A stretch of 58,688 nucleotides of DNA, taken from a virus. The notes under the pieces are model-generated. The model was not told the DNA's origin, searched no databases, and saw only the letters and a list, made by a program, of their open reading frames with translations. Numbering within the stretch: position 1 is the first letter of the stretch; each line of letters opens with the position of its first letter. The position numbers and the translations under genes are program-made. Shown here one piece after another: positions 8,897 to 55,792 of this stretch. The DNA is taken from positions 1 to 58,688 of IMG/VR virus record IMGVR_UViG_3300037041_002703. The stretch is one strand, 5' to 3'.

Positions 8897-9621
8897 TTAA
8901 GGTTGTAAGCTGTTTTTGGAATGCTGAAAAATATATTGGAAAATGTATTGAATCGTTGCAAATGCAAAAGTTTAAGGACTTTAAAGTTTACCTTATAGAT
9001 GATATGTCTACGGACAATTCAGTTTCCAAAATAGAAAAACTGATAGAGGAGGATATGAGATTTGAGTTGATTATAAATAAAGAAAAAAAATTTAAACTAA
9101 GAAACTTAGATGAACTCATACGGACTTTTGATGACGATGATGTTGTTGTCGAACTCGATGGAGACGATTGGTTATATTTACCAACAGTACTTGAGGAGAT
9201 TAACAAAACGTATCAAGACTCATCAGTTTGGATTACTAATGGTTCTTTTATGTATTCAAATGGTTCCAGAGGATTTTCTGCAAAATGTAACGCTTTAACC
9301 ATAAGAAAAGACGCTTTTCAATTTTCACACTTGAGAACTTGGAAAGCATTCCTGTGGAAAAGTATTCCTATTGAAAATTTCAAAGAAACCAACGGAGAAT
9401 ATTTCAAATCAGGTGCTGACGTTGCATATACCTTTCCTTTATTAGAGTTGGCTGGTGAAAAACACTACAAATTTATTTCTAGTATACTATATGTTTATAA
9501 TGCAAACTCCCCTTACAATGACCATAAAGAAGGTAGCGCAAGTGGTGGTTTAAATGAACAGTCCAGAGTAGCCAATATTATAAGAAAAAAAACACCCTTA
9601 AAACAACTTTTTATAGAATGA
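8893..9621 (+). CDS. Glycosyltransferase family 2
   Basis: 242 residues. A classical GT-A start, MIKVVSCFWNAEKYIGKCIESL, then FKVYLIDDMSTDNS (first Asp pair) and VVELDGDDWLY, a DxD-like metal/nucleotide-binding motif. It is a cytosolic inverting transferase with no membrane segment. ATGA overlaps on both sides couple it to the fused transferase before it and to nadE after it. Sugar specificity is unknown. Confidence 0.85.
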   Translation: MIKVVSCFWNAEKYIGKCIESLQMQKFKDFKVYLIDDMSTDNSVSKIEKLIEEDMRFELIINKEKKFKLRNLDELIRTFDDDDVVVELDGDDWLYLPTVLEEINKTYQDSSVWITNGSFMYSNGSRGFSAKCNALTIRKDAFQFSHLRTWKAFLWKSIPIENFKETNGEYFKSGADVAYTFPLLELAGEKHYKFISSILYVYNANSPYNDHKEGSASGGLNEQSRVANIIRKKTPLKQLFIE

Positions 9622-10367
9622 AAATGAAACAACACGAAAGAATATCTGAATGGGTAAAATCTTATGCTGAAAAAAATAAAATAAAATCATTGGTTGTTGG
9701 AGTTTCGGGGGGTATAGATTCTGCTGTTGTTTCCACCTTATGCGCTATGACAGGTTTACCCACGCATTGCGTTCTAATGCCAATTCATCAAAATCCTGAA
9801 CACACCAAAAGGGGTTCGAACCATATTAATTGGTTACAAACTAAATTTGAAAGGGTTGATTCACATGAGTTCAATTTATCGGAAGTTTATGATATCTTTG
9901 TTGATACTATGTCTTACGCAAAAAGTGAATTAGGGTTTGCAAATTCTCGTTCAAGATTAAGAATGACTGCATTATATCAACTAGCTTCGAGTACTAATGG
10001 TATTGTTGTGGGTACCGGAAATAAAATCGAGGATTTTGGTGTTGGTTTTTTTACCAAGTATGGAGATGGTGGTGTAGATATTTCACCAATAGCAGATTTC
10101 ACAAAAACTGAAGTATACGAAATCGCTAAACATTTAGGTATAAATCAAGAAATTATTGATGCAACACCAACAGATGGTTTATGGGGCGATGATAGAAATG
10201 ACGAAAGCCAAATTGGGGCGACTTACCCTGAGTTAGAATGGGCTATGGAATTTAAAAACAATAGAAATATTACGGAAAGAGAACAAGAAGTTTTATCAAT
10301 TTACAAAAAATTAAATTCTCAAAATAAACATAAAATGTTACCAATACCCATTTATAAAAAATCATGA
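9618..10367 (+). CDS. nadE: NAD+ synthetase, ammonia-dependent NadE type
   Basis: 249 residues. The N-type ATP pyrophosphatase loop SGGIDSA is at 30-36, and the NadE signature GTGNKIED plus FFTKYGDGGVDISP is at ~132-157. It converts deamido-NAD, ATP and an ammonia source to NAD+. No glutaminase domain is present, so it should use free ammonia. The typical length is kept, so it is probably active. It sits inside the sugar block with ATGA overlaps, directly before an NAD-dependent sugar-nucleotide dehydrogenase. It may top up NAD+ for such enzymes or counter host NAD-depleting defences; both ideas are inference. Confidence 0.9.
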   Translation: MKMKQHERISEWVKSYAEKNKIKSLVVGVSGGIDSAVVSTLCAMTGLPTHCVLMPIHQNPEHTKRGSNHINWLQTKFERVDSHEFNLSEVYDIFVDTMSYAKSELGFANSRSRLRMTALYQLASSTNGIVVGTGNKIEDFGVGFFTKYGDGGVDISPIADFTKTEVYEIAKHLGINQEIIDATPTDGLWGDDRNDESQIGATYPELEWAMEFKNNRNITEREQEVLSIYKKLNSQNKHKMLPIPIYKKS

Positions 10368-22218: not shown

Positions 22219-22655
22219 TAAAACATTACATTTCACATCGAGGAAACGTCGATGGTAAAATTAAAAACATAGAGAACTCTCCAGATTATGTCCAAAGAGC
22301 TTTGTCTTTGGGATACGAAGTTGAAATAGACGTGTGGTTCGTTGATGACTCATTTTATTTGGGTCACGACGAACCGCTTTATTTGGTACAAGAATCGTTT
22401 CTGGAAAACGAAAATTTTTGGTGTCATGCAAAGAACGAAGAGGCTTTTAATAAAATGATGATAAACTCTAATATTCATTGTTTCTGGCATCAGACGGATG
22501 ATTATACTTTGACATCCAAAGGCATCCCCTGGGTCTTCCCCGGCAAAAAAGTTTATAATAATGGTATTTGGGTTTTACCTGAAAACACAATTTATAAAAA
22601 CATTATGTTGGATTGTTTGGGAATATGTTCTGATTATATTTCGAATTACAAATGA
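22215..22655 (+). CDS. GDPD/PI-PLC-like phosphodiesterase fold protein, short
   Basis: 146 residues from a GTG start overlapping the preceding stop. The N-terminal YISHRGN, then YEVEIDVWFVDDSFYLGHDEPLY, matches the catalytic layout of glycerophosphodiester phosphodiesterases (H-R-G, E-x-D, G-H-D). The protein is about half the usual length and lacks the later TIM-barrel strands, so it may be a reduced enzyme. In glycan clusters such proteins often sit beside nucleotidyltransferases, as here. Activity is unproven. Confidence 0.65.
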   Translation: MIKHYISHRGNVDGKIKNIENSPDYVQRALSLGYEVEIDVWFVDDSFYLGHDEPLYLVQESFLENENFWCHAKNEEAFNKMMINSNIHCFWHQTDDYTLTSKGIPWVFPGKKVYNNGIWVLPENTIYKNIMLDCLGICSDYISNYK

Positions 22656-24016
22656 TTAAATTAGTGGTTTTTGATTTAGATGGTGTTTTAGTTGAAGCAA
22701 AACAACTACACTATGAAGCTTTAAATGAAGCATTAACCAAACATGCACCCGAGTGTGTTATTACCTGGACTGAACACCTATCAAAATACGATGGTTTAAA
22801 AACAAAACAAAAACTCGAACTACTGTCCCTTGAAAAAGGTTTAAACAATAATATGTACTCCGAAATTTGGGAAGAAAAACAAAAGATTACAAATGAAAAA
22901 TTAAGAACAATAACCCCCCATTCTAATCTAATTACTCTATTAAAAAAACTATCTGAGGATGGATTTAAGATAGCTTGCTGCAGCAATTCAATAAGAAAGA
23001 CTGTTTTGACAGTATTATCAAAACTAAACATTATTGAATATTTCGACCAAATTCTTTCAAACGAGGATGTAAAAAATAGCAAACCACACCCGGAGATTTA
23101 TTGGAAGGTAATTTCAGAGATGGGCGTTATTGCAGAAGAAACATTAATAATTGAGGATTCACCTTATGGACTTTTGGCGGCATCAAGAACTCATGCTCCT
23201 ATACTAAGAGTTTCGTCACCAAAGGAAGTTACCATAGAAAATCTCTATGGAAAATTAAAAGAATTAAATGCAAAGTTTAAAATGAAGAAACCTAAATGGA
23301 CTGATGAAAAACTTAACGTTTTGATTCCAATGGCGGGAGCTGGTTCGAGATTTGAAAAAGCTGGTTATACATTTCCTAAACCACTTATTGATATTGAAGG
23401 GGACCCTATGATTAAATTGGTTACTGAGAACTTAAATCTACGGGCAAACTTTATTTACATAGTTCAAAAATCCCACCGGGAAAAATATAACCTAGACACA
23501 TTGCTTAATTTAATATCGCCCAACTGTAAAATTGTTGAGGTTGATGGTCTTACAGAAGGTGCTGCTTGCACAACCCTATTGGCTAAAGAATTTATTGATA
23601 ACGAAAATCCGCTAATAATGGCAAACTCAGACCAGTATATTGAATGGGACTCCAATGAGTTTATGTATAAGATGACAGAAACCAATTGTGATGGAGGAAT
23701 AGTCACTTTCAAATCTACGCACCCTAAATGGTCTTTTGCTAAGGTTAATGAAAATGGTCTAGTAAGTGAAGTAGCTGAAAAAAAACCCATCTCTGATATT
23801 GCCACAGTCGGGATATACTATTGGAAGAAAGGTGCGGAATATGTAAAATATGCTGAGCAAATGATTGAAAAAAATATAAGGGTAAATAATGAGTTTTATG
23901 TGTGTCCAGTTTTTAACGAAGCTATAGAGGACGGAAAAGAAATTAGGACCTTTGAAATAAAAAAAATGATGGGTTTGGGAACACCAGAGGATTTATCTAC
24001 CTATTTGAGACGATAA
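22652..24016 (+). CDS. Bifunctional HAD phosphatase-sugar nucleotidyltransferase fusion
   Basis: 454 residues. Residues 1-~205: HAD hydrolase of beta-phosphoglucomutase/phosphatase type (VVFDLDGVLVEA, CCSNSIRKTV, K in NSKPHPEIY, IIEDSPYGLLAA). Residues ~215-454: NTP-transferase domain (LIPMAGAGSRFEKAGY, then PKPLIDIEGDPM, ANSDQYIEW with a metal Asp, EFYVCPVFNEAI). One chain could remove a phosphate from a sugar bisphosphate and then make the nucleotide sugar, as in heptose pathways, but the substrate is not known. It ends the core of the sugar-nucleotide genes; a 46-base AT-rich gap follows. Confidence 0.85.
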   Translation: MIKLVVFDLDGVLVEAKQLHYEALNEALTKHAPECVITWTEHLSKYDGLKTKQKLELLSLEKGLNNNMYSEIWEEKQKITNEKLRTITPHSNLITLLKKLSEDGFKIACCSNSIRKTVLTVLSKLNIIEYFDQILSNEDVKNSKPHPEIYWKVISEMGVIAEETLIIEDSPYGLLAASRTHAPILRVSSPKEVTIENLYGKLKELNAKFKMKKPKWTDEKLNVLIPMAGAGSRFEKAGYTFPKPLIDIEGDPMIKLVTENLNLRANFIYIVQKSHREKYNLDTLLNLISPNCKIVEVDGLTEGAACTTLLAKEFIDNENPLIMANSDQYIEWDSNEFMYKMTETNCDGGIVTFKSTHPKWSFAKVNENGLVSEVAEKKPISDIATVGIYYWKKGAEYVKYAEQMIEKNIRVNNEFYVCPVFNEAIEDGKEIRTFEIKKMMGLGTPEDLSTYLRR

Positions 24017-36812: not shown

Positions 36813-38609
36813 TTATCTCAATTCTCTCAAGTCGAACGTTCTAACACCATCAACTGTGATTCTACCATAGAACCTGTTATTTACAACCTTCTTAGCGTAT
36901 CTAGTCATGATACCCTTGATAGGTGTAAAGTTGAATGGGTTATACATCGTAGGAGTGAGTTGTAAAGGTACGTATGGAGCGTAGATGTATCCAGTGTCAA
37001 GTAACGAAGTACCTTTGTGTCCTAACAACACCTGGTTTGCAGGGAAGTAAGGGTCACGGTAAACTTGATATCTACCAGCCAAAGTACCAACTCTCTCGAT
37101 ACCCATGTTGTATTGGTCTTGCTCAGGAGCTGCGTTTGATACGTGGAAGTACTCCAAGTCATCAAAGATTGCAGAAACCTCAGAAGATACAACAATCCAG
37201 TTTGCGCCACCTCTTAGAGTTGATTTGTGGATTTGTGCAGAGATTTGGTTGATTGCAGTGATAAGCGTCTGGTTCCAGTCCTTCTGAGTGTAAGGAGTAG
37301 TTCCAGCTGAGAATCTCTTCCATCCGTTGTAGTCCCAACGAAGGTTCCAAGATGCAGCTTTTCTCAAGTCTCTCAAAATCTCACGGTCAATTTCAGCAGC
37401 TACTTGCTCAGACAACAACGCAGTCAATTCTGCTTCAGCGTCGATGTTGTGGAATGCAGCTACGTCTTGAGCCATTTCAGGAGACCATTGTGCTCTAAGT
37501 TTTCTTTCAGTAACCGAAACAGTCACAGACTGAAGGTCGAAAGAAACTTCACCAATTTTATCTTCGAATTCAAGATTCTTGTAGATTCTGTAAGTTGCAG
37601 TGAATGCCTGGTTTACTGTGGTAATTTCTGATGCAAATGTAGAACCAGTGTAACCGTCAAGTGATGAATCACCACATGAAAGACAAACAGGAACTTGCAA
37701 GTCAACTTCAAGGTAGATTTTACCCTCTTGGTCACAAACGTCGTAGTATGTACCACCATCAGTTTTAGAGTTAGGGAACACAAGAGTGTCATTTTGTCCG
37801 TATTGTACAATACCCTTACCGTATTTTTGAGTTACAACTCTGAATAGGTAGTTATTTTGAGTATTTGCAGAAGTATACAAGTTTCCAGCAGCACCACGGA
37901 TTTGAAGGTCAGTCAAGAATTCTTCTGTGTCCATAGGTTGACCGTTAGGTCCGATAAGTTGTCCAGCACCAGCTGTAGCAAATCCAGACATCACAATCAG
38001 AACCTTTCTGTAGTTACCCACAGTGTAAGCCGAAGGAATAAGTTGGTCAGCTAACCAAGCAACAGTAGTTACATCAGCTGAAATAGCTGAGAAAGAACCT
38101 TTAGAGTAGTCGTAAAGTCCTGGTGGGTCCAAAGCTGGTTCGTTACCTTCGTAGAATCTATCGTAAAGGTCTTTTTGAGTGTTATAGTCATAACCACTGT
38201 TAGGAGTTTGACCCGCAGCTGCATTAGGTGCTCCGTAAGGTGCCCAGTGCTCGTTTAAACCAGCTCCAGTGTAAGACTGAATGTTTGGTACGAAGTAGAA
38301 CAACTTACCGATAGGAAGGTTCATCGCTTGTACAGAAACGATATCGTTAGCCAAAAGCTTAGAGAATACTCTACGTACAATTGGGAAAACAACGGTTTCG
38401 AATGAACCTGAGTCTGCTGTAGACGATGCTTCGTTTATCAAATGTGACGCTTGGTTTTCATACAACTGCGCGATATTTTCTTTAAGGTGACCGTTAAGTC
38501 CTTCGAGGAAACCTAACTTGTCCCATTTGTTGATTGTATCTTCTTTGATAACTTTAAGGTGCTTAAGACCGATGTTACCAACAAGACCACTTTCTAATAA
38601 TGCTCCCAT
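36813..38609 (-). CDS. g23: Major capsid protein, T4 gp23-like
   Basis: 598 residues, right after the scaffold gene in T4 order and followed by a strong terminator. Start MGALLESGLVGNIGLKHL. A maturation site is visible as ASHLINE|ASSTADSG (after E60), followed by FPIVRRVFSKLLANDIVSVQ, which aligns with the T4 segment just after its cleavage point at residue 65. The HK97-type fold is expected. The remaining landmarks (GIMTRYAKKVVNNRFYGRI near the C-terminus) match gp23-like proteins. Codon use is more regular and C-ending than neighbours, as expected for a highly expressed gene. No TATTTAT element is seen in the 35-base gap to the scaffold gene. Confidence 0.93.
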   Translation of the reverse strand: MGALLESGLVGNIGLKHLKVIKEDTINKWDKLGFLEGLNGHLKENIAQLYENQASHLINEASSTADSGSFETVVFPIVRRVFSKLLANDIVSVQAMNLPIGKLFYFVPNIQSYTGAGLNEHWAPYGAPNAAAGQTPNSGYDYNTQKDLYDRFYEGNEPALDPPGLYDYSKGSFSAISADVTTVAWLADQLIPSAYTVGNYRKVLIVMSGFATAGAGQLIGPNGQPMDTEEFLTDLQIRGAAGNLYTSANTQNNYLFRVVTQKYGKGIVQYGQNDTLVFPNSKTDGGTYYDVCDQEGKIYLEVDLQVPVCLSCGDSSLDGYTGSTFASEITTVNQAFTATYRIYKNLEFEDKIGEVSFDLQSVTVSVTERKLRAQWSPEMAQDVAAFHNIDAEAELTALLSEQVAAEIDREILRDLRKAASWNLRWDYNGWKRFSAGTTPYTQKDWNQTLITAINQISAQIHKSTLRGGANWIVVSSEVSAIFDDLEYFHVSNAAPEQDQYNMGIERVGTLAGRYQVYRDPYFPANQVLLGHKGTSLLDTGYIYAPYVPLQLTPTMYNPFNFTPIKGIMTRYAKKVVNNRFYGRITVDGVRTFDLRELR

Positions 38610-40549: not shown

Positions 40550-41266
40550 TTAACGATTCAAATAATCGGTTAATTTTTTCATTAAATCAACTGACTTACC
40601 CATTCCAGAGTCAGAAATTTTTTGTTTTTTTTCTTCTTCTAGATTTTCTTCATACGTACTTCTTTCCTCAGGACTACCAAAAAGGTATGCACCTGGAGTT
40701 GATGGTGAGGAAACTAAGTCAAAGCAAATCAACTCAAAATCTTCTTGAACTTCATTTTGGTCACCTTTTTTTGCTAGCGAACCAACACCTCTCGACGACA
40801 CACCCATAGTCACTCCCTGACGCATTAAATTAGCCGCGATATCACCCTTAGTAGAAACTATTCCACTTTCATGAAATCCTGGTGATGTTAACAATTTTAA
40901 TTTACCCATTAAAATATTTCCATCCCACCAAACGTCGGTAATTATATGTGAAACTCGGTCCAAATCAATTAAAGAAGATTCTGGATGGTTCAACTCTGAA
41001 GTTGATAATCCTTTTTTAATAGCTGTTTTATACCTTTCAGCTTCTCTTTTTAAAATTTTTTCCGGATACACTCTGCCGTTTCTGTTTGGAACACCGTATT
41101 TCTGTAGTACAGCAAAAAATTCAAATGGATTTCTATAGTCAATTTCTTTGGTTTCCCTGAGAATGGCTTCATTTAAAGGGTCTCTTGGTGATACATATCC
41201 AGCATCCATTTCTACTAGAATGCCTCTGCCACTATCTTTAGGACCCAAAACTGGTAAATCTTTCAT
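40550..41266 (-). CDS. g21: Prohead core protease, T4 gp21-like serine protease
   Basis: 238 residues. Catalytic His in TSELNHPESS (H94) and catalytic Ser in GVTMGVSSRGVG (around S157/S158), with the family segment FELICFDLVSSPSTPGAY downstream. The fold is the herpesvirus-assemblin-like protease that digests the scaffold and trims capsid proteins after (I/L)-x-E. It lies in T4 order upstream of scaffold and capsid genes. TATTTATC sits 13 bases upstream. Probable cleavage targets visible in this window are MCP at E60 and small proteins ending their N-terminal helix in x-x-E. Confidence 0.92.
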   Translation of the reverse strand: MKDLPVLGPKDSGRGILVEMDAGYVSPRDPLNEAILRETKEIDYRNPFEFFAVLQKYGVPNRNGRVYPEKILKREAERYKTAIKKGLSTSELNHPESSLIDLDRVSHIITDVWWDGNILMGKLKLLTSPGFHESGIVSTKGDIAANLMRQGVTMGVSSRGVGSLAKKGDQNEVQEDFELICFDLVSSPSTPGAYLFGSPEERSTYEENLEEEKKQKISDSGMGKSVDLMKKLTDYLNR

Positions 41267-42723: not shown

Positions 42724-45570
42724 TTACGAATTTAATAACTTATCTAGTTCATCATTTAATTTACCTAAACTTTGCTGACCAACACCTAAATTTAAATATT
42801 TTTTACCATATAAATTAGATTCAATCAATAAATTCAAATCTTTACCCCTTATTGATTCTGGGGTTATTTCAGCTTCTTCGGGAGCTGGTGTTTCAGGTGT
42901 TTCGGGAACTCCAGGTATACCACCAGTATCCCCACCACCAAAATCTTCTCCGCCTAAAGCACCACCTAAGTCAGGAATACTTCCTCCACCCCCACCTAAT
43001 GAAGCGGCTGCAGGTTCAGAAGTTTCTCCTGGAGGAGCAGCTGGAGCTCCCTCTCCAGGTTTGTTGCCGTATAAAGCATCAATCTGGTCAAATATACCAG
43101 TTTTAGAAATTACTGTTGGGGTATTTTTAAGTTCTTCACCAATTGCCCTTTCCATTCTTTGCTGTAGCAGGTCAGTCTTAATTTCGTCATCAGACCAATT
43201 AAAAATGTGTTTTTTAGCCCATGTAGAAGATGCTGGTTGAATGCCATTTCCTGGGTCAGAAACCAAATCACGATAAAGTAATACTTTTTCCTTCCATATA
43301 TCAACTTTAAGCAAATCTGCCTGTGTTGAGGGGTTTGTGAGCCCCAAAGTAAAATTAGAAATTTCTTCTTCGAATCCTAAAATAAATAAATGCACTATGG
43401 CAATTTTATTTAATTCTTGAATCATCGATTTTTGAATTCGATTAATAGTACGGGCAAAACGAATATCCTGTAAAGCTAAACTTTTACCATCACCAACAAC
43501 TTCTTCAAATCCAAGAAACGCCTTCGGAATACGTAGAGCGGTTACCAGTTTTTTCTGGATATATTCAATGTCCGCAATTTCAGAAAGATTTTGGGCACCG
43601 GGCAAAGTATCAATAGGACTAGGTTGCGCTGGGTCTCTTACAGGTATAAAATAATCCTGGTCAACAGCCATCTGATTGAATCGCATATCAACATTACCTG
43701 TTTTCGAATCGACAATTTGTTCTCTTTTGAATTTGTTGGCAACACGTTGTACATAAGCTTCAACATCATCATCATTCATGTTTCCAACATAAACCTTAAA
43801 AATTCTTCTTTCTGGCGCACGAGATGTACGATAAATTAACATGGCATCCTCAGATAGCAACAATTGTTTCCAAATTCTTCTTGATTTTTCAAGCATAGAA
43901 GTACCATAAGGAAGTTTTCTATCGTCCCCAAGCAATCTAAAATGTGCGATTTCCCATGGTTGGAATTCCATGTTTTGGGGTTTCCAAGTAAATCTCAATC
44001 CTTTGTCATCCGTATTTTGAGGGACACCGATTGATGAATTTCTAGTTGCAAGCCCTTGTTCAAATCTTTCGATTTCTATATTGGGCAACTGCTGGCAACC
44101 TATAACCCCTTTTTCAGGGTCTAATCTCATGTAAACAAAATTATCACCATACTTACAGGTGTTTCTTGTCCACATTGCAAGGTTAGTATTAATGTCTAGT
44201 GCGTTATTGAATAAATCAACTAGTACTGACTTAATTCTTTTTGACTCTGAATAAACCTGAAGAATTAGACCATCCTCATTGGGTGTAGTAGATTCCTCGG
44301 CATAAATGTCCAACGCAGCAGAAATTTCTGGAGTGTTGTGTGAAAAAATAGTGTCTGTGGCAAAATTCTTATAGCCAGGAACTGTTAAGTCGTACACAGG
44401 AATAATGCCAAAAGGTTCAATAGATTCAATTTTGTGATTTAAATTGATTACATCACCTTTTGATTTTGCTGTGGAATATTTTGACTTTTCAATACCATAA
44501 GCTTCTAAAAATGTTTGCCAATCAGAATATCCTGAATTAACAACCTCTCTTTGTATTTTCCTATATGAAACATTTAATTTTGTTGCTGTTTTTTTGAGAG
44601 TTTTTTCACCTCTAGCTGCTTCAATAATATTGTCAAAACCAATTGTGAAATACGATGGATTGTTTACACCAGAACGCTTACCATCCCAAGACATTTTACC
44701 CTTTCTTTTTGCAACCTCAGACATTTTTTCCCTAAACTTAGGATTGGACCATAATTTTTCGTTGTTCAATTTTGCGTGATAAGCCCTATGTTCAGAAATT
44801 TTCATTATTTGAAGATTTTCTGGTTGATTATTCTTACCATTAAAATCAATATGATGAACTTCTTCGTCTTTTTCTATCGAGATGTTGTAAAACCACTGTG
44901 CAATTAAATTATGTTCGGAAATCCAGCCATTATGGCCTTCACTAGAATTACAAGTATAAATCCAATTATACTTTTCATTATTGAAAAAAGATTTACGATA
45001 AAAGGGCATCATAGAATCTCCTTTTTGTAAATTCATTACTCTTTCAAAAGAACCATCCCGTTTCATTAATTGATGTTCCCATGTTGCAATTATAAATGAA
45101 CCATCATCAAAGGTGACTTTATATGTCATTTCATCCCTTGTGTAGTGAGCATTTCTTGCTTTTGCTGGCACAACCTTTTTTAAATTGTGGTCATAAGAGT
45201 ATGTTATAAATTCGTAGTTTGGCCCTTTATCTGCGAGCTCTTTAATGGTAATAAATCCATCAGGTGTTGCTATTTTAGTATCACCATGAATACAATACTC
45301 CATAGATTCGTAATCGTAGTAGGACGCTAATCTGTTTGGCTCATAATAGACTGCTTGGGTATAAAGATTATTCTCAACCTTAGCAAACTGATTAGCTAAA
45401 TAAAACGATTGTTTGGCTTGAAGTTTTTCTCTTTCATATTCTGCCTTGTCAGTTGTTCTAAGAAGTTCTTTCTTATCTAACTTATAGACAGGAAAATCCT
45501 GATTTAACAAAGCGTCAGGGCCCAAAGCTCTACTTAATCTTTGCCAAACCGTAAAATTTCTATTTTCCAT
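42724..45570 (-). CDS. g20: Portal protein (T4 gp20-like) interrupted in frame by an HNH intein
   Basis: 948 residues as translated; 628 after removing the 320-residue intein (residues 93-412). Extein landmarks: the N-terminal FTVWQRLSRALGPDALLNQ, then YYDYESMEY joined after splicing to TPEISAALDIYAEES, the gp20 pattern. Later blocks include IEIERFEQGLATRNSSIG, IAHFRLLGDDRKLPYGTSML, RAPERRIFKVYVGN, KTGNVDMRFNQM and DTLPGAQNLSEIADIEY. A Gly/Pro-rich C-terminal tail follows. The dodecamer forms the DNA entry/exit vertex. Gene order (terminase, portal, protease, capsid) supports the call. Confidence 0.93.
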   Translation of the reverse strand: MENRNFTVWQRLSRALGPDALLNQDFPVYKLDKKELLRTTDKAEYEREKLQAKQSFYLANQFAKVENNLYTQAVYYEPNRLASYYDYESMEYCIHGDTKIATPDGFITIKELADKGPNYEFITYSYDHNLKKVVPAKARNAHYTRDEMTYKVTFDDGSFIIATWEHQLMKRDGSFERVMNLQKGDSMMPFYRKSFFNNEKYNWIYTCNSSEGHNGWISEHNLIAQWFYNISIEKDEEVHHIDFNGKNNQPENLQIMKISEHRAYHAKLNNEKLWSNPKFREKMSEVAKRKGKMSWDGKRSGVNNPSYFTIGFDNIIEAARGEKTLKKTATKLNVSYRKIQREVVNSGYSDWQTFLEAYGIEKSKYSTAKSKGDVINLNHKIESIEPFGIIPVYDLTVPGYKNFATDTIFSHNTPEISAALDIYAEESTTPNEDGLILQVYSESKRIKSVLVDLFNNALDINTNLAMWTRNTCKYGDNFVYMRLDPEKGVIGCQQLPNIEIERFEQGLATRNSSIGVPQNTDDKGLRFTWKPQNMEFQPWEIAHFRLLGDDRKLPYGTSMLEKSRRIWKQLLLSEDAMLIYRTSRAPERRIFKVYVGNMNDDDVEAYVQRVANKFKREQIVDSKTGNVDMRFNQMAVDQDYFIPVRDPAQPSPIDTLPGAQNLSEIADIEYIQKKLVTALRIPKAFLGFEEVVGDGKSLALQDIRFARTINRIQKSMIQELNKIAIVHLFILGFEEEISNFTLGLTNPSTQADLLKVDIWKEKVLLYRDLVSDPGNGIQPASSTWAKKHIFNWSDDEIKTDLLQQRMERAIGEELKNTPTVISKTGIFDQIDALYGNKPGEGAPAAPPGETSEPAAASLGGGGGSIPDLGGALGGEDFGGGDTGGIPGVPETPETPAPEEAEITPESIRGKDLNLLIESNLYGKKYLNLGVGQQSLGKLNDELDKLLNS
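44335..45294 (-). other. Intein with HNH endonuclease domain inside the portal gene
   Basis: 320 residues, Cys1 to Asn320, with Thr as the first C-extein residue. Block A is CIHGDTKIATPDG, block B GSFIIATWEHQLMKRDG (the T-x-x-H pair), block F PVYDLTVPGYKNFATD and block G IFSHN. A central homing endonuclease has an HNH motif at intein residues ~145-175 (EVHHIDFNGKNNQPENL). All splicing residues are present, so self-removal is expected. The insertion point is in a conserved portal segment, typical of inteins targeting essential sites. Confidence 0.93.
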
Positions 45571-45610: not shown

Positions 45611-47371
45611 TTACCTACCAAATAACCAACCATATTTTTCATAGTCAGCCCTTGACGCTGAGTAATTTTTTTGGTTGGGCATACCTTGCTGAGAAAATTG
45701 AGGTAAAGCCGGATTAAAATATTCGGATTTATCTTTGTTTTCAGTTATTACTGTGTTCCATGAATTTAACATCGCTTTAGTATGGTTGACTACCTTAACT
45801 AATGAAGGGAAAGCAGCTTCTGCAACATATAAAGCCATGGAAATCGCCATGATACAGTCATCGTGATGACCTCTTTGGTGGTCAGGTCTACCATTCATGT
45901 AAATAAAAGTTCCCATTTCGTTAATCAATCTATTAGACTTTATTTTAAATTCATGTCTGATAGCTTCTTCAAATGAAGCGATAATTTGAACTCTTTTATT
46001 ATTAAAATTTATCCCGGGAATTTTTTCTTTTATTTTTGGGTCATACTTCCATTTATTATTCATATCAACACCGTCGTAATAAAAATTTTCGTACCCTAGC
46101 TCTTGTAATTTCCTGGCTGTAGCAACCCCCATGCCACCAGTCAAATCAATAACACACAAAGCACTATACATTATTCCCCATTTATAAGCAATTTCTGCGA
46201 GAGTGTCTGGAGGTAGTTTACCAACAAACTCTAATACTTGTTCGCGAGAATCGAAATCAATAATTTCAATACAAGAAAAATCTTCCGAATCACCTCTGGA
46301 AACGTCAATTCCCATTACATATTTATGTTCATTTTCTGGCTCTTTCCAAATCCAGAGTTGGCCCCCAACTAATTTGGCTTCGGGTTCTCTAACATCGTTC
46401 TTAACAATTGTCTGCAACATTTGAGCGTCAAACACATTGTCTCCAGAACCCAGAAAATTACATTCCAATTCCTGTGCTACCTTCCTTCGGTCGTATTTTA
46501 ATTTTTTAACCATGCTCTCGAACCAGGATGAGCATGGTTTGTAACCATCATTGATGTATTGATGTAAGATTGAAAGTTGCCTTTCTCTTCTGTTTTCAGC
46601 AGATAAATCTAGAATAACATCCTTTGGGTATTCTTCTTTGTTAAGCAAATAATGTACAAGGTCGTTAGTTTTGACCATGTATAAATCTTTTGTGTATCTA
46701 GGGTCTCTGTACCAATACATTTCCGTAATCTTGAAATCATTCATATTACGTAATGCTTGGTCATAAATTTCATAATAAATGGGGTCAAAACCATTAGGTG
46801 TAGAAATCACAATAACTTTACCCCCAGTTGAGAGCGAAGCCATACATGCTGCCCAGAAGTCACTATCAGCTTCGATAAAGGCTGCTTCGTCAAAAATAAG
46901 TGTTGTTGGCGTGTATCCTCTAAGGGCGTCTTTTGAAGTTGCTACAGCTTTTACTTCACAACCATTTGAAAGTTTAAAATGTCTAGCAGAATTTTTTTCC
47001 GGTGCAAAACTTATGCCTACCCAAGGGGGCCATTGTTCTGTAAAACCCCGAATTTTGTTAGCAAATTCAACTGAAGTGTCAAGTTTATTTGCAATAATCA
47101 AAACTTTTTCGGGTTTTTCTTTTCTCGCAAAAGCTAATCTTTTACTCGCCCAAGCAGCTGTTACAGTGGAAACACCTGCTTGACGATACTTCAAAGCAAT
47201 ATTTTCATTGAAATTTTCATAATCCTCAACCAATTGAACTTGGTCTTGGAAAAGCTCCAAAGGGACATACCTTGAAACGGTATTGTCGTAAGTTTGAAGA
47301 TAAGCTTTAAGAGCATAAGGAGTGCTTTTCATACACTTCTTATACTCAATGATTACTTGTTCTTTTGTCAT
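45611..47371 (-). CDS. g17: Terminase large subunit, T4 gp17-like
   Basis: 586 residues. ATPase: Walker A variant RQAGVST (63-69), Walker B TLIFDEAAF (D161, E162), and motif III VISTPNG (~188). RNase H-like nuclease: GIDVSRGDSED (D356), VIDLTGGMG (D409) and GHHDDCIMA near the C-terminus (third acidic site). The motor pumps DNA through the portal and cuts concatemers. Its start follows the upstream stop by six bases, so it is translated with the 47378-48667 gene. No TATTTAT element directly upstream. Confidence 0.95.
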   Translation of the reverse strand: MTKEQVIIEYKKCMKSTPYALKAYLQTYDNTVSRYVPLELFQDQVQLVEDYENFNENIALKYRQAGVSTVTAAWASKRLAFARKEKPEKVLIIANKLDTSVEFANKIRGFTEQWPPWVGISFAPEKNSARHFKLSNGCEVKAVATSKDALRGYTPTTLIFDEAAFIEADSDFWAACMASLSTGGKVIVISTPNGFDPIYYEIYDQALRNMNDFKITEMYWYRDPRYTKDLYMVKTNDLVHYLLNKEEYPKDVILDLSAENRRERQLSILHQYINDGYKPCSSWFESMVKKLKYDRRKVAQELECNFLGSGDNVFDAQMLQTIVKNDVREPEAKLVGGQLWIWKEPENEHKYVMGIDVSRGDSEDFSCIEIIDFDSREQVLEFVGKLPPDTLAEIAYKWGIMYSALCVIDLTGGMGVATARKLQELGYENFYYDGVDMNNKWKYDPKIKEKIPGINFNNKRVQIIASFEEAIRHEFKIKSNRLINEMGTFIYMNGRPDHQRGHHDDCIMAISMALYVAEAAFPSLVKVVNHTKAMLNSWNTVITENKDKSEYFNPALPQFSQQGMPNQKNYSASRADYEKYGWLFGR

Positions 47372-51115: not shown

Positions 51116-51994
51116 TTAATTGTTAAGGCCGTTTACTCCCCCGAGAAGCACCGCACTTAAGTCGATTACAGTTCCTTGTTTTTGTCCGTCAGGACCGACA
51201 GGTACCCAGTCAGCTGGGTGAGGATATTCTGCGGTGTAGGTTACACCACTACAAGTTATGCAAGCTTCGGCTTCATACTGAACATTCACATCGAACACTC
51301 CAAATGGAGTTGCTGACGGAGTAGGGGTCATTGTTTGCGTTTGAGTCTGCGTAGGGGTAGCAGTATTTGTTGCGGTTTGTGTTGGCGTTGCAGTTTTTGT
51401 TGGTGTTTGTGTGGGGGTTGCTGTATTAGTTGTTGTTTGTGTTGGTGTTTGTGTTTGAGTATTAGTTGGTGTTACGGTAGGTGATGGTGTATTAGTTGGT
51501 GTTGACGTATTTGTTGCGGTAATACTTGGTGTTGGTGTGTTTGTTGCGGTATTAGTTGGTGTTTGAGTTTGAGTTGCTGTGTTTGTTGGTGTTTGTGTCT
51601 GAGTTTGGGTTGTAGTGTTTGTAGGCGTTTGTGTTTGTGTTGGGGTTTGGGTTTGTGTAACTGTTGGTGTTGGTGTTGGAGTTGCAGTATTTGTTGGGGT
51701 TTGAGTTTGGGTTGCCGTGTTTGAAGGTGTGTTGGTGGGTGTTGAAGTTGGCGATTCGGTAGGAGTTGGTGTCAAGTCTCCAAGGCACTCAACACAAGAA
51801 AGCCATGGTCCGTTAAATACTGTTACAACTTGTGCTAATGGAGTTTCCTCAAAAAAATTAAGGGTCCAACAACCAATGTTTGTTGACCCGTCTAGTAATT
51901 CGTAAATTCTACCAGAAACTATGGTAGCTTCAGTAGCAAAAAATCTTGAAGGTTGCCCAACACAAGAAGTTCCAATAAAATAATTCAATGCCAT
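51116..51994 (-). CDS. Thr/Pro-repeat (mucin-like) virion protein
   Basis: 292 residues. A folded N-terminal domain of ~72 residues ([35 protein letters not shown]), then ~155 residues of degenerate [13 protein letters not shown]-type repeats, then a ~60-residue C-terminal domain ([18 protein letters not shown]). Thr makes up a large share of the repeat. Such extended Thr/Pro tracts are typical of heavily O-glycosylated or stalk-like surface proteins; with eleven glycosyltransferases in the same window it is an obvious candidate acceptor, though this is inference. TATTTATA lies 13 bases upstream. Confidence 0.75.
51310..51775 (-). repeat. Degenerate tandem repeat encoding Thr-Pro-rich tract
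   Basis: Short direct repeats (plus-strand units such as GTTGGTGTTTGTGTT) vary in copy and order across ~465 bases and encode the Thr/Pro/Gln tract. The strand is strikingly G/T-rich. Slippage could change its length between strains. Confidence 0.8.
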
Positions 51995-53736: not shown

Positions 53737-53767
53737 TTGGAAATGTCCGTTTTTTGTTTAACCTTTG
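53737..53767 (+). promoter_or_regulatory. Host-type promoter of the ClpC-like gene
   Basis: TTG (53737-53739), 19-base spacer, then TAACCTTTG (53759-53767), one base longer than the TAnnTTTG consensus. The ATG at 53789 is 21 bases beyond. Confidence 0.45.
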
Positions 53768-53788
53768 TACAAATCAAATTATAAAACC

Positions 53789-55792
53789 ATGAGCGAAACT
53801 ATGGACGACGACGACGATAAGGCCCTCGGTAGGAAGAAACCCTCTTCTGATTCTAGAACTCCTGTTCTGGATAATTTTTCCCGTGACCTTAATAAACTTG
53901 CTGAGCAAGGAAAGCTCGACCCAGTAATTGGTCGAGAAAAAGAAATCGTGCGCATTGCACAGATTCTCTCTCGTAGAAAAAAGAACAACCCTATCATCCT
54001 AGGTGAACCCGGTTGTGGTAAGACCGCAATTGTGGAGGGTCTTGCGAGCTTGATTGTAAATGGAAGCTGTCCCAAGAACCTTCTTGATAAGCGCATCGTC
54101 ACCCTTGACCTTACAGCAGTTGTTGCTGGTACAAAATACCGTGGTCAGTTTGAGGAGCGTCTTAAGGTTATCTTGGAGGAACTTTCCCAAAACCCCAACA
54201 TCATCATCTTCATTGATGAAATTCATACCTTAATTGGTTCGGGTAACTCTTCCGGTAGCCTGGATGGTTCCAACATCTTTAAACCTGCTTTGGCTAGAGG
54301 GGAAATCCAGTGCATCGGTGCTACCACGTTGGATGAATACCGCAAATCATTTGAAAAGGACGGAGCTTTGGAGCGTCGCTTCCAAAAGGTAATGGTGGAC
54401 CCATCCACCGTTGCTGAGACCATTCAAATTCTCACCAACATCCGAGACCGCTACGAGGCATTTCACAAGGTATCGTACTCTGATGAAGTCATCGAGTTGT
54501 GTGTAAAGCTCGCTGACCGCTACATCACCGACCGAGAATTCCCTGACAAAGCATTTGATATCCTTGATGAAGTGGGGGCTCGCAGTCAGACCGAGCAGAA
54601 GATTCCAGAGATAATTGAGGAGCTTAAACATAAAGCTGCTGATATTAAGCTTCAGAAGATGGAAGTTGTCAAAAAGCAGAACTACGAAGAAGCTGCGGCC
54701 CTTCGTGATAAAGAACGGAATATTCTTGTAAAACTTCAAAATGAGAAGAAGAAGTTCGAACAAGAGTCCGCAACCCATCGTGTTCCAATTACCGTGGAAC
54801 AGGTATACGATGTCGTATCTAATATGACCAAAATTCCGGTGAGCAAAATGTCAATTGATGACACCAACGCTCTTATCAATATGGACAAGGTTCTTATGAG
54901 CAAGGTCATTGGTCAAGATGAAGCGGTCTCCAAGATTGTTAAATCAATTCGTAGAAACCGCATCGGCATTAAAGACCCCAACCGTCCGATTGGTTCGTTT
55001 ATATTCCTTGGTTCAACGGGTGTTGGTAAGACTCACCTAGCAAAGCAAATTGCAAAGGAGATGTTTGGTTCAGAAAGCGCTCTTATCCGCGTTGACATGA
55101 GCGAATACCAGGAGAAGCACACAATTTCCCGATTGGTTGGAGCGCCTCCGGGATATGTGGGTTACGAAGAAGGTGGACAGCTGACCGAGCAAGTCAAAAA
55201 CAAACCTTATGCTGTAATCCTATTCGATGAAGTTGAAAAGGCACACAAGGACATCTTTTCGATTTTGCTCCAGATTCTAGATGATGGTCACGCAACCGAT
55301 TCATTGGGACGCAAAATTAACTTCAAGAACACCTTGATTATCATGACCACAAACCTTGGGGTTAAGAAACTACAGGATTTTGGTTCCGGAATCGGTTTTT
55401 CTTCCAACAAGTATTCAAACGAGGAGGCAAAAAAACAAATTTTGATGAAGGAAATGAAGAACTTCTTCTCACCTGAATTCATCAACCGTATCGACGATAC
55501 GATTGTCTTTGAGACCCTGTCTCAGGATAACATCGAAAAAATCGTTGGTTTGGAACTTGAGAAGCTCTCCAAGCGATTGGGTGAGATGAAGTACAAGATT
55601 GTTATGGACAAAACCGTGACCGAATACATTGCTAAAATAGGATTCGACCAGGTTTATGGTGCACGCCCAATAAAGCGAGCCATCCAGGACAAAATCGAAG
55701 ATTTTCTTTCGGAGCTTATCTTGATTGGCAAACTCAAAGAGAACCGCAAATACACCATCAAGGTGGTGGATGAAGAGGTGAAAATCTCCTAG
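53789..55792 (+). CDS. ClpC-like AAA+ unfoldase with ClpP-docking tripeptide
   Basis: 667 residues; ATG 53789 chosen over a TTG at 53765. D1: Walker A GEPGCGKT (72-79), Walker B FIDEIH (D143, E144). A UVR-like middle segment (KKQNYEEAAALRDKERN, ~295-311) is typical of ClpC. D2: Walker A GSTGVGKT (408-415), Walker B ILFDEVEKAH (D480, E481). The segment GSGIGFSSN contains I-G-F at 535-537, where ClpA/ClpC dock ClpP; ClpB lacks it. The usual N-terminal Clp-N repeat domain is missing, so substrate or adaptor recognition must differ. Base composition is more GC-rich than neighbours, suggesting later acquisition. Followed by a strong terminator. Confidence 0.93.
   Translation: MSETMDDDDDKALGRKKPSSDSRTPVLDNFSRDLNKLAEQGKLDPVIGREKEIVRIAQILSRRKKNNPIILGEPGCGKTAIVEGLASLIVNGSCPKNLLDKRIVTLDLTAVVAGTKYRGQFEERLKVILEELSQNPNIIIFIDEIHTLIGSGNSSGSLDGSNIFKPALARGEIQCIGATTLDEYRKSFEKDGALERRFQKVMVDPSTVAETIQILTNIRDRYEAFHKVSYSDEVIELCVKLADRYITDREFPDKAFDILDEVGARSQTEQKIPEIIEELKHKAADIKLQKMEVVKKQNYEEAAALRDKERNILVKLQNEKKKFEQESATHRVPITVEQVYDVVSNMTKIPVSKMSIDDTNALINMDKVLMSKVIGQDEAVSKIVKSIRRNRIGIKDPNRPIGSFIFLGSTGVGKTHLAKQIAKEMFGSESALIRVDMSEYQEKHTISRLVGAPPGYVGYEEGGQLTEQVKNKPYAVILFDEVEKAHKDIFSILLQILDDGHATDSLGRKINFKNTLIIMTTNLGVKKLQDFGSGIGFSSNKYSNEEAKKQILMKEMKNFFSPEFINRIDDTIVFETLSQDNIEKIVGLELEKLSKRLGEMKYKIVMDKTVTEYIAKIGFDQVYGARPIKRAIQDKIEDFLSELILIGKLKENRKYTIKVVDEEVKIS

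Follow-up and report, generated by a model that had tools for sequence, protein, structure and literature searches.

The portal locus

The portal is a ring in the phage head that DNA passes on its way in and out. In the window, as we call the whole 58.7-kb stretch of viral DNA analysed here, a T4-type portal (gp20) gene lies within a head-gene cluster on the minus strand and is interrupted by an in-frame intein. The precursor reading frame (42724..45570, minus strand; PF07230, phrog_213) is open throughout and encodes 948 aa, with the Portal_T4 profile PF07230 matching from precursor residue 413 onward (E=1.6e-72). Directly upstream lies the terminase large subunit, itself without an intein (45611..47371, minus strand); downstream, in the same cluster, follow a gp21-type head maturation protease (40550..41266, minus strand; phrog_207, 2.9e-45) and the major capsid protein Gp23 (36813..38609, minus strand; PF07068, 5e-74). 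Homology to PF07230 together with the terminase, protease and Gp23 neighbours identifies the host protein as a T4-type portal, in line with the sequence-only reading of this DNA. A modest AlphaFold2 model of the intein-free portal of a relative (L036) superposes on T4 gp20 structures; at a pLDDT of 57 it is good for fold matching only and too weak for structural detail. Since some intein-bearing relative contigs exceed 250 kb (L012, L013, and L014), the window probably represents part of a large phage genome.

Several other genes of the window deserve mention in their own right. On the plus strand these are an NAD synthase (9618-10367), a HAD-like hydrolase fused to a nucleotidyl-transferase domain (22652-24016), which lies within a long series of sugar/glycan-like genes at roughly 4.3-24 kb, and a double-AAA, Clp-type ATPase of 675 aa (53765-55792). 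On the minus strand, a protein at 51116-51994 holds a long low-complexity stretch rich in Thr, Pro, and Gln (TPTQTQTPT...), with ordinary-looking ends on both sides.

Anatomy of the intein

The intein (44335..45294, minus strand) measures 960 nt, or 320 aa, and runs from a Cys at portal aa 93 to an Asn at aa 412. Upstream of it, the 92-aa N-extein (45295..45570, minus strand) ends in ...YYDYESMEY; downstream, the C-extein (42724..44334, minus strand) begins TPEISAALDIYAEEST..., reads TPEISAALDIY... on its side of the insert, and has as its first residue Thr+1 (44332-44334). These borders, which the sequence-only reading had placed after E-S-M-E-Y, proved correct to the base, both from the reading frame and from the uninterrupted junctions of relatives described below. 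The N-terminal Hint splicing region (intein aa 1-100; 44995..45294, minus strand) is matched by TIGR01445 (intein_Nterm) over precursor aa 93-169 with 41.9 bits (cut-off 24.5). It opens with Cys1 (codon 45292-45294, minus strand) in block A (CIHGDTKIATPDGF) and includes block B, T71-W-E-H74 (45073-45084, minus strand), whose T71 and H74 are invariant in 25 relatives. The C-terminal Hint region (intein aa 285-320; 44335..44442, minus strand), likewise invariant at its end in 25 relatives, is matched by TIGR01443 (intein_Cterm; 28.3 bits, cut-off 15.6) and closes with ...TDTIFSHN (His319-Asn320), after which comes Thr+1, an ending that is unchanged across the relatives compared. In some relatives Cys1 is replaced by Ser1. 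Pfam Intein_splicing (PF14890) scores 46.4 bits on the precursor, above its cut-off of 35.8, and the best PDB structures that Foldseek matches to an intein model belong to inteins or Hint relatives, with NpuDnaE first (E=1.4e-5), although the AlphaFold2 model itself is poor (mean pLDDT 59) and serves fold matching only.

Between the two Hint regions lies an HNH homing-endonuclease region (intein aa 120-200; 44695..44937, minus strand), VHHIDFNGKNNQPENLQIM...EHRAYH. Many HNH endonuclease families in PHROGs match it, with E down to 9e-12, whereas Pfam HNH_3 (PF13392) scores 22.5 bits, slightly below its cut-off of 24.8; the HH/N residues are invariant in the 25 relatives aligned. It is followed by a helix-turn-helix-like segment (intein aa 215-270; 44485..44652, minus strand; FDNIIEAARGEKTLKKTATKLNVSYRKIQREVVNSGYSDWQTFLEAYGI), absent from the sequence-only reading and recognized from alignments and from AlphaFold2 helices with a pLDDT of about 80. 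This segment is probably DNA-binding, and longer relatives, at about 387 aa (such as L025 and L163), seem to have it in duplicate. In-frame insertion with uninterrupted homologues, Cys/Ser1, the TxxH motif, His-Asn followed by Thr+1, and a Hint fold are the hallmarks of class 1 inteins, and all are found here. The insert is thus, by its motifs, a complete class 1 HNH intein with predicted splicing activity, and the splicing blocks and HNH domain attributed to it from the sequence at the outset are borne out.

Distribution, mobility, and selection

Empty sites in relatives, which the sequence-only reading had proposed to look for, are abundant: among the portals fetched from a scan for portal relatives, which returned 80 loci, 74 read through the site without interruption (ESMEY|TPEI(S/A)). 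The two closest portals (L036 and L037), at about 84-89% DNA identity to that of the window, both lack the insert. A profile scan for relatives of the intein also returned 80 loci, a few of them cut by contig ends, and 80 of 80 lie in T4-type portals at the same junction as in the window, sharing FSHN|TPE at the 3' side. Bacterial and archaeal genome contigs, when scanned, yielded no relative of this intein. In annotated phage records it matches only distant inteins or HNH genes, and its portal matches there are two unannotated huge-phage records.

The history of the element departs from that of its host gene. Compared with its counterpart in L006, the intein of the window shows 94.8% DNA identity and a dS of 0.25, against about 82% identity and a near-saturated dS of about 2.1 in the C-extein, and the step in identity falls at the borders of the insert. 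In a tree built from 75 portals after dereplication, 39 of them occupied and 36 empty, with annotated phage records left out, well-supported branches force at least six gains or losses of the intein, and the sister of the window is the empty L036. A further comparison sets an occupied portal (L007; also L008, from another sample, and L092) against an empty one (L097): from the first base 3' of the intein onward the two agree over 1,163 bases without a mismatch, while on the upstream side they differ from base -4 and are about 12% diverged, which makes a recombination boundary coincide with the point of insertion. The dS discordance with L006, the empty nearest portal relative, and this run of identity at the 3' edge show that the intein has moved recently and horizontally. 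Occupancy of one site in 80 of 80 loci, scattered presence, discordant dS, and a breakpoint at the site are together the signature of site-specific spread. Co-conversion of the flanks was sought between the window and L006; it spans about 20 bases at most, less than textbook homing would leave, and an endonuclease-driven route of transfer is thus a proposal. Within the intein, dN/dS is low in every domain (0.045 in Hint-N, 0.089 in HNH, 0.069 in the HTH-like segment, and 0.032 in Hint-C), and splicing and endonuclease therefore both appear to be maintained under strong purifying selection.

Inteins across T4-type portals

The insertion in the window is one of several. Long portal reading frames among the fetched loci, with junctions chosen as those best restoring the portal profile, revealed ten distinct insertion sites in T4-type portals. 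Numbered by the last residue of the window extein before the insert, with the aligned T4 gp20 number in brackets, site a, that of the window, follows residue 92 (84), site i 107 (99), site b 151 (150), site c 237 (251), site d 250 (264), site e 262 (276), site f 314 (328), site j about 327 (341), site g 339 (353), and site h about 376 (394). Inteins at each of the ten sites pass Pfam Intein_splicing. LAGLIDADG endonucleases occur in some at sites c and e, HNH in some at sites a, h, and j, and mini-inteins of 138-150 aa at sites c and d have no endonuclease match. Three portals (L156, L182, and L112, the last being LR756508.1) carry three inteins each in precursors of 1,387-1,544 aa, mixing HNH-bearing, other large, and endonuclease-free mini-inteins. 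T4 gp20 is divided into wing (70-254), stem (255-278), clip (279-358), channel loop (350-359), and tunnel loop (374-398) (PMC4493910). On this numbering the ten sites are spread over all five parts, with site a in the wing domain, close to where the ordered part of the protein begins. Inteins commonly occupy conserved functional regions, and the placement of the portal inteins in functional parts of gp20 fits this preference.

At sites b and f, inteins begin with Pro instead of Cys or Ser (L128:5138-6409, L191:5348-6622, and L182:6275-7450), as does the terminase intein of phiCbK (PMC3556154), and splicing by a mechanism other than that of class 1 is possible for them. At site i, an intein of 228-232 aa is present at VF(A/S)DEA|CQ(K/R) in 38 of 38 portals with coverage in a clade resembling LR756511.1 (37 portals plus LR756511.1 itself; L113, which is LR756511.1, and L198-L236; for example L113:2007-2702). 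No empty allele was seen among these 38 portals with N-terminal coverage, a count with a mild bias given that one of the six search patterns held an intein residue stretch; the single intein inspected, in L113, has no HNH or LAGLIDADG match. On this evidence the site-i intein is a candidate domesticated portal intein.

Proposed mechanism and alternatives

A homing element must splice efficiently so that its host gene is unharmed. We consider it very probable that the insert is an ordinary, intact, homing-capable HNH intein, predicted both to splice, as a functional portal demands, and to cleave DNA. The Hint domain would excise itself after translation, by an N-S acyl shift at Cys1 and transfer to Thr+1, and cyclization of Asn320, helped by His319, would release the intein. 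Joining ...ESMEY to TPEI..., with a junction spanning ESMEYTPEISAAL, would then yield a ring-competent, intein-free portal of 628 aa. In a co-infected cell, the HNH domain would cut the intein-free portal gene of a relative across ...GAATCTATGGAGTAT^ACTCCAGAAATT..., with the HTH-like tail reading the target, and repair of the cut would copy the intein in. We infer the DNA cleavage and the absence of regulation as well as the splice chemistry, the last from motifs and known intein chemistry.

The most serious competitor, which we nevertheless regard as unlikely, keeps splicing but supposes an inactive endonuclease, the distribution being due to ordinary phage recombination carrying the insert along. 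The HNH_3 score under the Pfam cut-off and the very short co-conversion tract with L006 would suit it, as would L196, in which HNH is truncated and the splice ends are intact; such a copy is predicted by the homing cycle. Against inactivity speak the HNH residues, invariant in nearly all relatives, the low dN/dS of the HNH region (0.09), the repeated gain and loss, and a breakpoint that coincides with the insertion site. Chance cannot reasonably account for the insert. That it is not an intein at all, but an insertion that is fused or inactive, or an artefact of assembly, has a negligible probability, as dozens of further contigs share it strictly in frame with conserved splice residues. A chimeric assembly or assembly accident was ruled out separately by the same insertion, at about 99% identity, in four other contigs (L002-L005).

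A conditional intein, whose slow or triggered splicing would time portal and hence head assembly, is a further alternative, one that the sequence-only reading had raised. Its attraction lies in the position of site a, near the start of ordered gp20 (T4 residue 84), where an unspliced insert would probably block assembly, and in the different, endonuclease-free intein fixed in another portal clade, which indicates that long-term retention in portals does occur. Yet the close relatives do without the element, the catalytic residues are all canonical, and there is no sensor sign or other sequence sign of regulation. Because the intein is scattered on the tree, absent from the closest portal relative and thus dispensable by phylogeny, the proposed delay of head assembly finds no support, and we hold conditional splicing in the window to be highly improbable. 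Only slightly less doubtful is a broader proposal, that in large uncultured phages T4-type portals are a recurrent intein refuge in which some inteins (notably that of site i, perhaps at times that of the window) became post-translational gates on head assembly. The ordinary homing intein remains our preferred reading.

Significance and comparison with known systems

With this locus the intein catalogue gains a new extein and a new insertion site. Enzymes are shown not to be the only repeated targets of inteins: gp20, an oligomeric structural protein of the virion, is interrupted at ten sites, several of them in its stem, clip, channel loop, and tunnel loop. The natural pairs of occupied and empty portals with near-identical flanks offer a ready test system for the homing of HNH inteins among phages, and the fixed, endonuclease-free intein of site i is a concrete candidate with which to ask whether a phage intein can be domesticated. 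There are practical consequences too: according to work cited in PMC5259590, T4-like phage phylogeny and diversity have been studied with the portal gene as marker, and portal inteins, at 138-458 aa, would disrupt amplicons and lead annotation astray.

The initial view, in which inteins are uncommon in portals, is correct only in part. Mycobacteriophages of cluster C1 are reported to have them, with six inteins listed for one portal group, PORT (PMC5050341), and the ten sites in T4-type portals, an unusually frequent target, add to these. Portal inteins as such are therefore already known, and what stands out more is how many sites occur within a single structural protein. For T4-type gp20 we found no report of inteins in the literature searched, an open library with few subscription journals, which is not proof of absence. 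The C1 inteins resemble that of the window in residing in a phage portal protein; the window differs in its T4-type gp20 and HNH domain, the C1 phages infect mycobacteria, and this comparison is one of hosts and domains. The closest curated intein-bearing model is the intein-containing RtcB family protein (NF052663), with 84 bits over aa 93-415, far below its whole-protein cut-off of 1050 and confined to the intein part, its host protein being RtcB; it is also the closest such model for several other portal inteins. Inteins in phage terminases are a familiar case. Those of the large subunit, TerL, occur at seven sites in mycobacteriophages (PMC5050341), in crAss-like Delta phages (PMC7886860), and as two inteins in cyanophage Mic1 (PMC7156551). 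Like the portal inteins, they interrupt a packaging protein at several positions within conserved functional regions, and a single protein may hold more than one of them, but their host is the terminase, and the terminase next to the window portal is intein-free. T4-type portals also hold inteins in two huge uncultured phages, LR756508.1 (484 kb; three inteins) and LR756511.1 (595 kb; one), in whose unannotated records they were recognized here; these inteins differ from that of the window in lying at sites c, d, h, and i, some of them with no endonuclease match.
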